Shown: positions 37,678 to 43,894 of the stretch, piece after piece
How positions within the stretch are numbered: the stretch's first letter is position 1
How the letters are laid out: every line of letters begins with the position of its first letter
Source of the DNA: Coriobacteriales bacterium
GTDB lineage: Bacteria > Actinomycetota > Coriobacteriia > Coriobacteriales > Atopobiaceae
NCBI GenBank assembly: GCA_030529625.1
Contig: JAUMWN010000011.1
Coordinates: forward strand, 1 to 46,689
Reading direction: 5' to 3'
Length of the DNA stretch: 46,689 nt
Notes under the pieces: model-generated
What the model saw: only the letters and a program-made list of their open reading frames with translations
What the model was told of the DNA's origin: nothing
The model's database searches: none
Translations under genes and position numbers: made by a program

Positions 37678-37818
37678 CTATTTGGAGACGGTAAGACGCT
37701 TGCGGCCCTTGGCGCGACGGCGCGCGAGGACCTGGCGGCCACCCTTGGTTGCCATGCGTGCGCGGAAGCCGTGGGTCTTGGCGCGCTTCCTCTTGTTTGG
37801 CTGATACGTGCGTTTCAT
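37678..37818 (-). CDS. rpmH: 50S ribosomal protein L34
   Basis: Encodes 46 residues starting [18 protein letters not shown] and ending KRLTVSK, the complete family length and sequence. GGAGGA is 4 bases upstream of the ATG. It is the first gene of the minus-strand operon running from the origin through rnpA, yidD and yidC. Confidence 0.97.
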
Positions 37819-38269
37819 GGTTCCTCCTGCAGGCTATGGTCTGGGGCGATCTCCCCCTGACGTTCAAATTCAAGCCTACAAAGTGTAATGGTGTAAAACG
37901 TGGGTGTCAACCTGCGCACATCCCCTCCACGCGAGCGCCGGCCGCTTGGGGCTGTCCGCCCGTGGCTGTGGTCAGTGTCAGGCGGACAAAGGGGACAGTC
38001 CCCCGCGTCTACCTGCAGCGGCACAGCCACATGCCCGCGCATGGGGGTAGACGTGGAGGACAGTCCCCTTTGTCCGCCCCTGAAATAAATCTTGCACTTT
38101 GGCGTTAACTTTCCTCTGTCGTGTTAGAATCTTCAGCTGCTCCTGAAAGTTTTCGCGGGATTTTTCGTCATGTTTTTCTCATCTGTAGAAAACTTTCATT
38201 CACATAATTTTCGGAGTGAAAGTTTTCTTCACGTGTACAATGCGTGTTGAGAACTCTTGGGGAGGGCGC
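37819..38269. other. Origin-side gap between rpmH and the ATPase gene
   Basis: Divergent gap of 451 bases with no gene. It contains a large inverted repeat (37981-38078), three copies of TGAAAGTTTTC (38144-38154, complement at 38188-38198, 38217-38227), DnaA-box-like 9-mers TGTAGAAAA (38184-38192) and TGTTGAGAA (38245-38253), and a TACAAT that could be a -10. It probably forms part of oriC and the promoter of the ATPase gene. Confidence 0.6.
37981..38078. repeat. Origin copy of the GGGGACAGTCCCC inverted repeat
   Basis: Arms 37981-38012 and 38047-38078 are inverted with a few mismatches (GGCGGACAAAGGGGAC then a varied centre to GTCTAC). Unlike the other copies it lies between divergent genes, so termination is not an obvious role. 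Confidence 0.8.
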
Positions 38270-39355
38270 ATGGCGCAGGACTTCTACCCGTTCGTGGAGA
38301 ACGGCGAGGCATCGCAGGTGGGTGAGGGCACCGTACGGCATGCGGCGCGCATTGCCGTATACGACGACGCCGCGGCGGCGCCGCGCGTGGTGGTGGTGGA
38401 GCCCCAGGAGATTCGCCCCTACCTGGAGGAGATCACGCGCGTGGTGACCCAGCTGGCCAAGGAGCAGGGTGGCACCATTCCCTTTATGGTCATTCGCGAG
38501 ATCGTGGAGAACCTCATCCACGCCTACTTTATGGAGCCCACCATATCCATACTCGACGGCGGCAACACGATACGCTTCTCGGACCAGGGGCCGGGCATCA
38601 CGAACAAGGACCTCGCGCTCCAGTACGGCACCACGTCGGCGACCGAGGAGATGAAGCGCTACATTCGCGGCGTGGGGTCGGGGCTGCCCTACGCCCAGCA
38701 GTACATGCGGGACAAGGGCGGGTCGCTGCGCATAGACGACAACCTTTCGGGCGGCACGGTGGTTACCATCTCTGCCCTGCCTGAGTCACCCGACGCCACC
38801 CAGCCCATGCCCATGCCTGTTCCCTACCCCGGCTCGCCACAGGCCCAACAGGGATGGCCAGGCGCGCCGCAGACGCAGCAGGGATGGCCCGCGGCTCAGG
38901 CGGGTTGGCAGGCCCAGCAGGGCTGGCAGACGCCTCAGGGCTACGCCATGCAGTCCCCCGCCTGGCAGCAGGCGCCGCAAGGCTACGCCGCGCCGGCCCC
39001 CGCTTGGCAGCAGATGCCGCAGCAGACATGGCAGGCACCCGCCGCCGGAGCCCCCTTCGCAGGCGATCCAGCCCAGCAGACGCCGACCCCGCAGCAGGCG
39101 TCGGCACAGCCGCAGGCAGAGCTGCCCCAGATGCGGCTCGACGAGCGCGCGTCGGCGGTTTTGAGCTACCTCGCCCGCCACGACGTCGTGGGGCCAACCG
39201 AGCTCACGCGCGCATATGGCGAGTCGGGCCCCACCTGGTCGCGTGTGCTGCAAAAGCTCGAGGAGCAGGGAATCGTGCGCAAGGACGGGCAAAAGCGCAG
39301 GCTCACCGTCTTGGGACGCACCTACCTGGAGCGCCAGGGCGCGTACTTGCCGTAG
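38270..39355 (+). CDS. GHKL ATPase fused to a winged-helix domain
   Basis: Encodes about 361 residues. The N-terminal half (about 55-165) is a histidine-kinase/Spo-type ATP-binding fold: N-box IREIVENLIH (N81), G1 box SDQGPGI (D105-G109) and G2 box RGVGSGLPYA (about 133-141). No kinase dimer/His domain is visible. A Pro/Gln/Trp-rich linker (about 180-280; repeats QQGWP, QxGWQ) follows, then a C-terminal winged helix (about 285-361: ERASAVLSYLARHDVVG, QKLEEQGIVRKDGQKRRLTVLG). It should bind ATP and probably DNA, as a regulator rather than a kinase. The GGGGAGGG site favours ATG 38270 over the GTG at 38216. It is placed between rpmH and dnaA, with origin-type repeats on both sides. Confidence 0.85.
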   Translation: MAQDFYPFVENGEASQVGEGTVRHAARIAVYDDAAAAPRVVVVEPQEIRPYLEEITRVVTQLAKEQGGTIPFMVIREIVENLIHAYFMEPTISILDGGNTIRFSDQGPGITNKDLALQYGTTSATEEMKRYIRGVGSGLPYAQQYMRDKGGSLRIDDNLSGGTVVTISALPESPDATQPMPMPVPYPGSPQAQQGWPGAPQTQQGWPAAQAGWQAQQGWQTPQGYAMQSPAWQQAPQGYAAPAPAWQQMPQQTWQAPAAGAPFAGDPAQQTPTPQQASAQPQAELPQMRLDERASAVLSYLARHDVVGPTELTRAYGESGPTWSRVLQKLEEQGIVRKDGQKRRLTVLGRTYLERQGAYLP

Positions 39356-39438
39356 ACCGAGTTTTCTACAAAGTTAACAGTTGAGCCCAGTTTTCATCAT
39401 ATACTATACGGGCACACACGACAGAGGGCTGGAGACAC
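39356..39438 (+). promoter_or_regulatory. Short gap before dnaA with a box-like site
   Basis: Contains TTTTCTACA (39362-39370), resembling a DnaA box, the octamer-plus AAAGTTAAC (39370-39378), inverse of 38104-38112, and an AT-rich TATACTATA tract (39400-39408) that could be the dnaA -10. The -35 is not clear. Suits DnaA autoregulation. Confidence 0.45.
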
Positions 39439-40899
39439 ATGGAAGGCGCAAGCGAGACAGACGCTGACATCCTATGGGAGGACGTGGTGGCCACGTTGGA
39501 GGACAACGACCTGCCAGCCGCCACCATAGCCATGCTGCAGAGCTGCTCGGCAACCAAGCTCGAGGAGCAGACGCTGCTGGTGTCCTGCTCCTCCAGGTTC
39601 GTGCAGCGCACGCTGGGTCGACTCGCCACCGAGCTCGACGAGGCGGCCAGTGCCGTGGCGTTTGAGCCCATGCACGTTGAGGTCCAGGTGTCGCGTGCCG
39701 AGACGTCCGAGAGGCGCGCCCGGGAGCGTGCGGTGCCCGCGCAACCGCAGCCCGTGCCCGCGCCGGCCGCCGAACAGGCGCAGCGCGCGGCCAAGAGAAA
39801 CCCGCTGCTGGAAGACATCACGCCCGTGGACTCGCTGCTCACCTTCGACCGGTTCGTCGAGGGACCCCAAAACAAGTTCGCCCTCGACGCCGCCAAGCAG
39901 GTGGCCAACGGCAACCGCAACTACAACCCGCTGTTCATCTACGGCAAGAGCGGCCTGGGAAAGACCCACCTCTTGCGGGCCATACAAAACTACATCGCGC
40001 AAAACGACCCGGAGCGCACGTGCGTGTACCGAGTGGCCACCGACTTTATTGACGACTACTCGCGCGCCATGAAGAACGCGCGTGCCGGGGCCGCAGAGGC
40101 GCTGGCCGAGAACTACCACAGCATAGACGTGCTCATCGTGGACGACGTGCAGCTCATGAGCACGGCGGCCGGCACCATAGGCTTCTTCTACGACACCTTT
40201 AACTACCTGGTGGGGCACGGCAAGCAGATCGTGCTCGCGGCCGACCGCACCCCCTCCGAGCTGGGGATGGGCCAGTCGCGGTTTGACGAACGCGTGACCA
40301 GCCGACTGGACTCGGGCATGACCGTGTCGGTGCAGGTGCCCGACTACGAGCTCAAGCTGCAGCTGATCGACGCGTTCTACGAGCGCATGCGCGCCGACGC
40401 GCGCGAGCAGCACGTGCCGGGGATGGACGCCCACATAAGCGAGGACCTGCGTCGCGTGATGGCCGAGCGCGCAGGTACCAACATACGTGTGATAGAGGGC
40501 TACGTGCAGTCGTGCCTCATGCTCGCCTTCCAGCGCGAGGCGCTGGGGTCGACCATAACCGAGGAGGACATCATTGGCGTTGCCGAGCAGAAGTGGCCCA
40601 CCGGGCAGCGGCGCGTTACGGTGGAGCAAATCCAGGAAATCGTGGAGCGCAGCTACGGCATCGACCACGCGGGCCTGGTGGGCAGCAGACGCAACAAGGA
40701 GCTGATGGAGCCGCGCCACGTGGCCATCTGGCTCACGCGCGAGCTCACCGACAACACGCTCGCCGACATTGGCAAGCACTTTGGCAACCGCACACACGCC
40801 ACCGTAAAGCACAGCATCCACGTAATAGAGCAGGGCATGCGCGACGACCGCGTGCTGCAGGACCGCGTGGCGCGCATACGCGACTCCGTACTCGAGTAG
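39439..40899 (+). CDS. dnaA: Replication initiator DnaA with altered DNA-contact residues
   Basis: Encodes 486 residues. Domain I (about 1-80), a variable linker (about 85-130), AAA+ domain III (Walker A IYGKSGLGKTH, Walker B IVDDVQLM, sensor regions) and DNA-binding domain IV (about 395-486). Typical E. coli box contacts are R399, P423, D433, H434, T435, T436 and H439; here the aligned stretches read SRRNKELMEPRH, TLADIG and GNRTHATVKH (449-458), so the R399, P423, D433 and T435 equivalents are Lys, Ala, Thr (T452) and Ala (A454), while H453, T455 and H458 stay. A changed box preference is expected. ATG 39439 is 83 bases after the ATPase gene. dnaN follows 239 bases later. Confidence 0.96.
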   Translation: MEGASETDADILWEDVVATLEDNDLPAATIAMLQSCSATKLEEQTLLVSCSSRFVQRTLGRLATELDEAASAVAFEPMHVEVQVSRAETSERRARERAVPAQPQPVPAPAAEQAQRAAKRNPLLEDITPVDSLLTFDRFVEGPQNKFALDAAKQVANGNRNYNPLFIYGKSGLGKTHLLRAIQNYIAQNDPERTCVYRVATDFIDDYSRAMKNARAGAAEALAENYHSIDVLIVDDVQLMSTAAGTIGFFYDTFNYLVGHGKQIVLAADRTPSELGMGQSRFDERVTSRLDSGMTVSVQVPDYELKLQLIDAFYERMRADAREQHVPGMDAHISEDLRRVMAERAGTNIRVIEGYVQSCLMLAFQREALGSTITEEDIIGVAEQKWPTGQRRVTVEQIQEIVERSYGIDHAGLVGSRRNKELMEPRHVAIWLTRELTDNTLADIGKHFGNRTHATVKHSIHVIEQGMRDDRVLQDRVARIRDSVLE

Positions 40900-41138
40900 G
40901 ACGGCCCATGTTTACAACTCTGTTGAATGGGCGAACAAGCCGCTCAATAAGTTTGCGGTACGTGTTGAGAGCGGTTTTCGATTGCCTGTTGAAAGAAGAA
41001 TCGGGTGAGAGTCACGGCGTGAGGCGTACGCCAGCTTTGGGGGCGCTACGTGGGCATACGTGCCATTATCAACATTTCTACAGGGCCTATTACTGCTACT
41101 AGATTCTAAATAGAACAATAAGAACAATAGGAGGACAC
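40900..41138. other. Candidate oriC: dnaA-dnaN basal unwinding region
   Basis: Box-like 9-mers: complement TGTTGAATG 40921-40929, TGTTGAGAG 40963-40971, TGTTGAAAG 40987-40995, then TTATCAACA 41066-41074 and ATTTCTACA 41074-41082 on the plus strand. GGGC (41083-41086) follows, then on the minus strand the triplets TAG-TAG-CAG-TAA-TAG (41101-41087), like DnaA-trios, then AT-rich DNA with a tandem AGAACAATA (41112-41129). Box, GC cluster, trios and melting DNA in this order match the basal unwinding system described for Bacillus. Confidence 0.7.
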
Positions 41139-42291: not shown

Positions 42292-43380
42292 ATGGGACTG
42301 GCCGTCTCGCGCATAGCGCTCTTTGACTGGCGCAGCTTTCACGACCGCACCATGGAGCTGTCGGGAGGGCTCACGGTGCTGGTCGGCCCCAACGCCACGG
42401 GAAAGACCAACACCGTGGAGGCCCTGCAGTTGCTCACCGCGGGCCTGTCGTTTAGACACCCGCGTACGGCCGACCTGGTTCGCGAGGGCGCCACGCACGG
42501 TCGTGCCGCCGCGCGGCTGGAGGGCGACGGCCGCGTGGTGGACGTGGCGTGCGAGGTTGGCGAGGGCAAGCGGCGGTTTGTGAGAAACGACAAGCCGTGC
42601 CGGCCTGCCGACCTGTCCGCAACGCTCATGTCGGTGCTGTTCTGCCCCGACGACCTGTCGCTGGTAAAGGGGTCGGCGCGCATGCGACGCGACGCGCTGG
42701 ACGCGTTTGGCTCGCAGGCCAACGCGGGCTACCGCAAGGTGGTGCGCACCTACGCGCGCTCCATCGAGCAGCGCAACCGCCTGCTCAAGGAACCCGTGTG
42801 CGACCCGGGCATGCTGGCGGCCTGGGACGCGTCGGTGGCCCTGGGAGGGGCTACGCTGCTCCATGCCCGCCTGGCCCTGTTCGCCCGGCTTCGCCGGCAC
42901 CTGCGCGAGGTGTATGCGCAGGTGGGAGGCGGCGAGTCGGTGGAGTGCGCCTACGAGTGCAGCCTGGGCGACGGCGTCGACGAGTTGTCCAAAGACGAGC
43001 TGCGCGAGCTTTTCCTGGACCGCCTGGAACAGGGGCGCGCCGAGGAGCTGCGCCGCGGGGTCACGCTCGTCGGCCCGCAGCGCGACGACGTGTCCTTTTG
43101 GATCGCGGGCCGAGACGCCCGCTCGTTTGGGAGCCAGGGACAGCAGCGCTCGGTGGTCCTGGCATGGAAGATGGCCGAGGTCGCCATCGCCCGCGAGGTC
43201 GTGGGCGAGCAGCCGCTGCTGTTGCTCGATGACGTGATGAGCGAGCTGGATGCCACGCGCCGCGCGGCCATGACGCGCTTTGTGGAGGGCGGCATCCAAA
43301 CGGTGGTGACCACCACCAACCTGGACTACTTTCCCGCCGACCTGCTGGCACGGGCGGAGGTGATCGGCTTTGGCACATGA
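42292..43380 (+). CDS. recF: Recombination mediator RecF
   Basis: Encodes 362 residues. SMC/ABC-like ATPase with Walker A VGPNATGKTN (about 32), an insert with coiled arms, signature GSQGQQRSVVLAWKMAE (about 275-291) and Walker B LLLLDDVMSELD (about 303). It loads RecA at gaps. Ribosome site GGAAGGGCACAGG precedes ATG 42292. It overlaps dciA. Confidence 0.95.
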   Translation: MGLAVSRIALFDWRSFHDRTMELSGGLTVLVGPNATGKTNTVEALQLLTAGLSFRHPRTADLVREGATHGRAAARLEGDGRVVDVACEVGEGKRRFVRNDKPCRPADLSATLMSVLFCPDDLSLVKGSARMRRDALDAFGSQANAGYRKVVRTYARSIEQRNRLLKEPVCDPGMLAAWDASVALGGATLLHARLALFARLRRHLREVYAQVGGGESVECAYECSLGDGVDELSKDELRELFLDRLEQGRAEELRRGVTLVGPQRDDVSFWIAGRDARSFGSQGQQRSVVLAWKMAEVAIAREVVGEQPLLLLDDVMSELDATRRAAMTRFVEGGIQTVVTTTNLDYFPADLLARAEVIGFGT

Positions 43381-43894
43381 TCGCGGAGGCGAGGCGGCGC
43401 GCGCCGGCGCCGTGGTGGCGTCGCTGATCGCGGGCCCTTTGGGAGCCGACCTCGGCGAGGCCCAGCGCGCCGCGCGGGCGTGGTATGCGGCCAACGGCGA
43501 CCGCGAGCGGGCGCACACCACGGGCGTGTGGCTCAGACGCCCTACACGCGCCGGCGCCGACCCGGTGATGGTGGTGCGCGTGGACTCGGGCCTGCTCGCC
43601 TCCGAGTTGGGCACCAACAAGGACCTCTACCTCTCGCGCCTCGCCTTCCACGGCGTGCGCGTGTCCGACATCCGCTTTGACGTGGGGCAGATGCCTGCCG
43701 ACTCCACACGCCCGCAACGTGCAAAACGCGCCAAGAAAACCACCCCGGGCCCGGAGCCTGCGCTCACGCCTGGCGAGCGCGAGGACGTGGAGCGCGCGTG
43801 CGCCCAGCTTCCCGACGGACTGCGGCAGAGCGTTTCTCGCGCCATGTGCGCGTCTTTGCTCAGGGAGAGGAGTCACACTACACAAGAAGCCTAA
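43370..43894 (+). CDS. DciA-type DUF721 protein, TTG start
   Basis: Encodes 174 residues. The DUF721-like core (about 1-110: VVASLIAGPLG, WYAANGDRERAHTTGVW, LVVRVDSGLLASELG, YLSRLAFHGVRVSDIRFDVG) matches the family whose members load DnaB in bacteria without DnaC/DnaI; a charged helical tail follows. It sits between recF and gyrB, the position typical for Actinobacteria. The start is TTG 43370: a near-perfect GGAGGTGATC (43356-43365) lies 4 bases before it, inside recF, giving an 11-base overlap with the recF stop. No ATG in frame fits better. Confidence 0.8.
   Translation: MAHDRGGEAARAGAVVASLIAGPLGADLGEAQRAARAWYAANGDRERAHTTGVWLRRPTRAGADPVMVVRVDSGLLASELGTNKDLYLSRLAFHGVRVSDIRFDVGQMPADSTRPQRAKRAKKTTPGPEPALTPGEREDVERACAQLPDGLRQSVSRAMCASLLRERSHTTQEA

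Follow-up and report, generated by a model that had tools for sequence, protein, structure and literature searches.

A GHKL ATPase–winged-helix gene linked to dnaA within the apparent replication origin of Coriobacteriia and other actinobacteria

Introduction

What is the role of a gene that lies between rpmH and dnaA, in the place where oriC usually lies, and whose product joins an ATP-binding fold to a winged helix? The question is raised by a stretch of 46,689 nucleotides from a Coriobacteriales genome (the window, meaning the whole of the DNA analysed), from which a sequence-only reading had picked out the gene and proposed that its product regulates initiation or dnaA. Our literature searches indicate that the control of initiation is essentially unstudied in the Coriobacteriia, to which gut organisms like Eggerthella belong, and in other deep actinobacteria; if the gene does encode a conserved ATPase that regulates from within the dnaA operon, it would be a missing component of this control. 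No published description of the gene was found in the open-access literature.

Results

Architecture of the protein

The positions of the gene and of the surrounding features are collected in Table 1. Translation from the ATG at 38270 to the TAG ending at 39355 gives a protein of 361 residues, in which Pfam identifies HATPase_c at residues 73–172 (E 1.4e-9; 38.8 bits, the cut-off being 26.4) and, above its cut-off, HTH_IclR at residues 292–340 (E 8e-8); no HisKA/DHp or receiver family is matched anywhere in the 361 residues. The description that had been given of the protein, as a GHKL fold lacking kinase parts and connected by a Pro/Gln-rich linker to a winged helix, is thus borne out. The 108 residues of the linker comprise 26% Q, 21% A, 19% P and 6% W, and its length varies among relatives, being short outside the Coriobacteriales. 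The ATP-binding domain carries an N box (E77xxE80N81), G1 (D105xGxG109), G2 (G134xGxG138) and G162. At the N terminus of the protein an FYPFVE motif is conserved. The Pfam score, the fold match and the invariant N, G1 and G2 motifs place it in the GHKL ATPase superfamily, with its Bergerat fold, and the C-terminal domain is assigned to the winged-helix fold, with a recognition helix, by Pfam, model and structure match alike. The winged helix is found within the same open reading frame in 146 of 150 loci.

Table 1 Positions of the gene, its domains and the neighbouring features in the window
Feature	Position	Strand	Basis
rpmH, divergent upstream neighbour	37678-37818	-	Window annotation
Extended -10-like promoter of the gene (putative), TGTTAGAAT	38122-38130	+	Conservation
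Third GAAARYTTTC palindrome	38145-38154	+	Genome-wide pattern search, upstream conservation
Four DnaA-box-like sites, upstream half of oriC (38162-38170 +, 38184-38192 -, 38223-38231 +, 38245-38253 -)	38162-38253		
Bipartite palindromic element, GAAAACTTTC-N20-GAAAGTTTTC	38188-38227	+	Exact-form search in genus
GHKL ATPase–winged-helix protein gene	38270-39355	+	Translation, Pfam, synteny in 150 loci
GHKL ATP-binding domain, residues 26-169	38345-38776	+	Pfam, ungapped in 20 relatives, fold model
Q/A/P/W-rich low-complexity linker, residues 176-283	38795-39118	+	Composition
C-terminal winged helix (MarR/IclR/OhrR-like), residues 284-361	39119-39352	+	Pfam, model, structure match
dnaA promoter region (predicted)	39362-39405	+	Boxes 39362-39370 and 39391-39399, abutting -10 TATACT 39400-39405
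dnaA	39439-40899	+	Pfam Bac_DnaA, Bac_DnaA_C
Origin unwinding element, dnaA-dnaN gap	41066-41101	+	DnaA box TTATCAACA (41066-41074), then DnaA-trios

The full-length AlphaFold model is confident only in the winged helix (pLDDT ~94), which superposes on OhrR 2pex with Z 11.9 (69 residues, rmsd 1.3), OhrR/MarR structures in general scoring Z ~12. A model of the GHKL domain by itself reached a pTM of 0.70 and a mean pLDDT of 69 with a poorly defined lid, the other four models being poor; its best structure match is DIP2311 (3lmm; Z 13.5, 149 residues, rmsd 3.0), the next best scoring 8.5, histidine kinases ~8 and SpoIIAB 1til 8.2 (124 residues, rmsd 3.9). Sequence searches against solved structures gave weak relatives, namely sporulation kinase B and, as the second-best group, MutL for the ATP domain, and MntR/MarR-type regulators for the winged-helix tail. 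Matches to defence systems and to PHROG families involved the winged helix alone and were rejected.

Ten residues of the ATP domain (E77, N81, H84, D105, G107, G109, G134, G136, G138 and G162) show no variation across 142 distinct domains. Mean identity within the window's family is 78.5% for the ATP domain, 61.3% for the DnaA core, 65.0% for DnaN and 51.9% for the winged helix, and across the phylum it is 44.8%, 32.1% and 32.4% for the first three; as judged from these identities, the ATP domain is slower-evolving than DnaA.

Relation to known GHKL proteins

DIP2311 of Corynebacterium diphtheriae (PDB 3lmm) is, we presume, a member of the AlbA_2/HATPase_c_4/HTH regulators and, like the window protein, would have a GHKL-type domain coupled with a module that binds DNA. 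Such regulators have an N-terminal AlbA_2 domain, whereas only ~25 residues precede the GHKL domain of the window protein, which has no AlbA_2, and they carry HATPase_c_4, to which the window protein has no Pfam match at E up to 1 in spite of 3lmm being its best fold. With both tests failing, we have not filed it among the DIP2311-like regulators; its design resembles that of GHKL plus helix-turn-helix regulators. The function of DIP2311 has been reported as unknown (PMC8780604).

The likeness to the CA domains of histidine kinases consists of the above-threshold HATPase_c match and the fold score of ~8, but the window protein lacks the DHp helix pair, the phospho-acceptor histidine and a sensor part, and has a winged helix attached. 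With the SpoIIAB/RsbW anti-sigma kinases it shares a small soluble GHKL domain that aligns with 1til; those are single-domain proteins, however, whereas here a C-terminal winged helix is fused in nearly all loci and the gene is linked to dnaA. No anti-anti-sigma partner gene adjoins the gene in the window. A separate RsbW-like GHKL protein of 141 residues (HATPase_c_2; L002, G000:C138:13035-13280) is encoded in the same genome and in most of the genus. The glutamate four residues ahead of the invariant asparagine (E77–N81) recalls MutL, GyrB and Hsp90, the position of E77 being that of the MutL catalytic base, but these proteins have a transducer domain, in place of which the window protein has its linker and winged helix, and the homology is confined to the ATP-binding domain.

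Linkage to dnaA

Synteny was compared across 150 loci, which represent the Coriobacteriia as well as other classes of Actinomycetota. The window annotation and Pfam confirm that the gene lies between rpmH and dnaA, and in 140 of the 150 loci dnaA follows directly 3′ on the same strand; the other 10 are seven complete records that open with dnaA (one of the seven being L122/L123) and three short contigs that end before dnaA would be reached. Random placement of homologues, named beforehand as the outcome that would speak against a role at this site, was not encountered: none of the 150 loci is a counterexample to the linkage or has dnaA in another place. The gap to dnaA is 25 bp or less in 45 of the 75 loci outside the window's family (26 of 34 in other classes, 19 of 41 in other Coriobacteriia) and 63–523 bp within it.

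Divergent rpmH lies upstream in 139 loci, beyond dnaA in 5 and out of view in 6. One family contributes five loci (L186, L187, L188, L196 and L197) in which the segment made up of the gene and dnaA is inverted between rpmH and dnaN, indicating that the gene is tied to dnaA and not to rpmH, which we therefore rejected as its true partner. The inversion is a small one inside the origin region, with rpmH–rnpA and dnaN–recF undisturbed.

Origin context

The expectation that this is an origin-typical place agrees with the GC skew of relatives, which switches at the gene. In G066, whose record starts elsewhere, all 11 pieces on one side are negative and all nine on the other positive; G356 gives 5/5 and 5/5 pieces, and G212 is noisier (9/11 and 6/9).

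DnaA-box-like 9-mers, as had been noticed from the letters, occur on both sides of the gene (Table 1). They are enriched in the rpmH–gene, gene–dnaA and dnaA–dnaN intervals and rare within genes; in the genus, the rpmH–gene intervals hold 13 boxes against 0.7 expected from shuffles and the gene–dnaA gaps 10 against 0.3. TTTTCATCATATACT in the dnaA promoter region is nearly invariant across the genus. An origin unwinding system consisting of a DnaA box plus DnaA-trios has been described (PMC8287927), and the dnaA–dnaN gap of the window has a matching layout, its box being followed by the trios CTA TTA CTG CTA CTA (41087–41101); box and trios together were found in five of eight genus loci, against 0.0 expected. 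Given the enrichment of boxes around the gene and this layout, the gene and dnaA look to be sitting inside a bipartite oriC.

Upstream promoter and palindromic element

Upstream of the gene, a simple consensus scan gave no sigma-70 site, and positions 38120–38129 show 92% mean column identity in 16 genus members; the putative promoter in Table 1 falls here. The short repeats that had been reported about the gene proved to be three GAAARYTTTC palindromes, starting at 38145, 38188 and 38218, all of them 5′ of it. In genome-wide pattern searches of the 2.98-Mb assembly, GAAAACTTTC has three copies in total, both strands counted, and these lie within 83 bp of one another at this site. The 40-bp element in its exact form, the spacer fixed at 20 bp, is present a single time in each of 11 genomes out of 16 in the genus, just 5′ of the gene, between its likely promoter and its start codon. 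The palindromes overlap DnaA-box-like 9-mers, so that DnaA, the window protein or both may bind the element. Outside the window's family no palindromes of the GAAARYTTTC form were seen.

Distribution and loss

The domain profile is matched at E ≤ 1e-3 in 283 of 298 genomes of the class, most at < 1e-50, and the few matches near 1e-3 may be other GHKL proteins. A sample of the phylum gave matches at E ≤ 1e-10 in 157 of 396 genomes, many from other classes; the range of the gene is thus far wider than the Coriobacteriia. Relatives in named contigs belong to Atopobiaceae, Coriobacteriaceae and Olsenella, from animal guts. None was found in plasmids or viral contigs, and a mobile or phage origin was rejected on that ground.

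Absence of the gene is uninformative in 10 of 16 gene-less genomes, since these also lack dnaA, pointing to an assembly gap at the origin region. True loss is seen in L108–L111, four genomes in which dnaA is still present: the rpmH–dnaA interval with its DnaA boxes remains and the gene is gone. The gene is therefore not indispensable everywhere. Ten genomes that are 89–99% complete have no dnaA match (G213, G292, G303, G026, G223, G027, G035, G031, G093 and G073), and since assemblies lose the origin region in this way, presence/absence surveys of origin genes will be biased.

Discussion

The explanation that we favour, at a probability of about 0.6, is that the gene encodes an ATP-dependent DNA-binding protein whose regulation would be directed specifically at the dnaA operon and/or at the origin in which its own gene is housed. 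In many deep-branching actinobacteria it probably has an overlooked part in setting when chromosome replication begins. The earlier proposal of a regulator of initiation or of dnaA is in part supported, by the operon-close spacing, the inversion together with dnaA and the invariant residues of the ATP site. In the mechanism that we propose, the GHKL domain would bind ATP, for which the invariant residues indicate competence, and probably hydrolyse it; the nucleotide state would govern dimerisation and hence how the two winged helices, each on its tether, pair with each other. In the genus of the window these would bind the GAAARYTTTC palindromes between the promoter and the start of the gene, and their occupancy may tune transcription into dnaA and/or how DnaA is loaded onto the upstream half of the bipartite oriC. 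Set against regulation of this kind are the loss of the gene in L108–L111, the fact that GHKL domains can also be kinases, and the chance that the palindromes are read by DnaA alone.

The protein might instead act on DnaA by contact, in the manner of SirA, DiaA, HobA or Hda, or as a kinase or antagonist like SpoIIAB/RsbW, the winged helix then being a protein-interaction module or a minor DNA tether. Operon-type coupling to dnaA would suit such a role, as would a GHKL domain whose identity within the family exceeds that of the winged helix (78.5% against 51.9%) and that aligns with SpoIIAB (Z 8.2), and FYPFVE might serve as a docking peptide. We consider this unlikely, though worth keeping in mind: the winged helix is retained in 146 of 150 loci, the SpoIIAB score does not rise above those of histidine kinases, and there is no adjoining anti-anti-sigma gene in the window. 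Positional stasis, by which a general regulator of transcription whose targets lie elsewhere has been kept beside dnaA through a frozen gene order at the origin, accords with the general conservation of the order rpmH, rnpA, yidC, dnaA, dnaN and with an architecture that would suit any target. It fits poorly, however, with the inversion of the gene along with dnaA, with operon-close spacing in distant classes and with a palindromic element exclusive to this site in 11 of 16 genus genomes; moreover, the rpmH–dnaA interval persists where the gene has been lost, so that the place does not force its retention. We regard stasis as distinctly improbable.

A further reading assigns the upstream array and the palindromes to DnaA alone, the protein being minor or the product of a passenger gene transcribed through the origin. 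The palindromes do overlap DnaA-box-like 9-mers, and DnaA boxes are a general feature of these intervals, but an ATP domain more constrained than DnaA itself, with invariant catalytic residues, is unlike a passenger, and we give this reading very little credence.

Returning to the dedicated regulator, lineage-specific proteins that act on DnaA or oriC include SirA, DiaA, HobA, Hda, SeqA, Spo0A and MtrA, and a role of this type is what we propose for the window protein. To our knowledge, none of them is a GHKL–winged-helix protein encoded in the dnaA operon. A bolder idea, which we offer tentatively and hold to be possible rather than probable, is that the gene encodes an initiation factor of ancestral actinobacteria. 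As a second ATP-dependent protein, encoded inside oriC by the first gene of the dnaA operon, it would link the nucleotide state of the cell with the synthesis of DnaA and the firing of the origin; several deep classes would have kept it, and it is absent from much of the remaining phylum.

The replication genes of the window show some further features. In DnaA domain IV (40740–40830) the signature for recognition of the DnaA box, GGRDHTTVxHA, has become GGR(T/S)HATVxHS in the window's family, where the boxes are TTWTCAACA/TTWTCATCA and TTWTCCACA is found at merely 0.01–0.03 per kb; lineages with DH(T/S)T in the signature use TTWTCCACA, at 0.2–0.7 per kb. On the basis of the sequences compared, the two changes look like a co-evolved switch of specificity in DnaA and its box. 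The N terminus of DnaA (39439–39800) has no Pfam match to DnaA domain I, so that the regulator-docking domain appears to have diverged in this lineage. Between recF and gyrB, a reading frame at 43370–43894 probably encodes DciA, the helicase operator (23.5 bits against a Pfam cut-off of 24).
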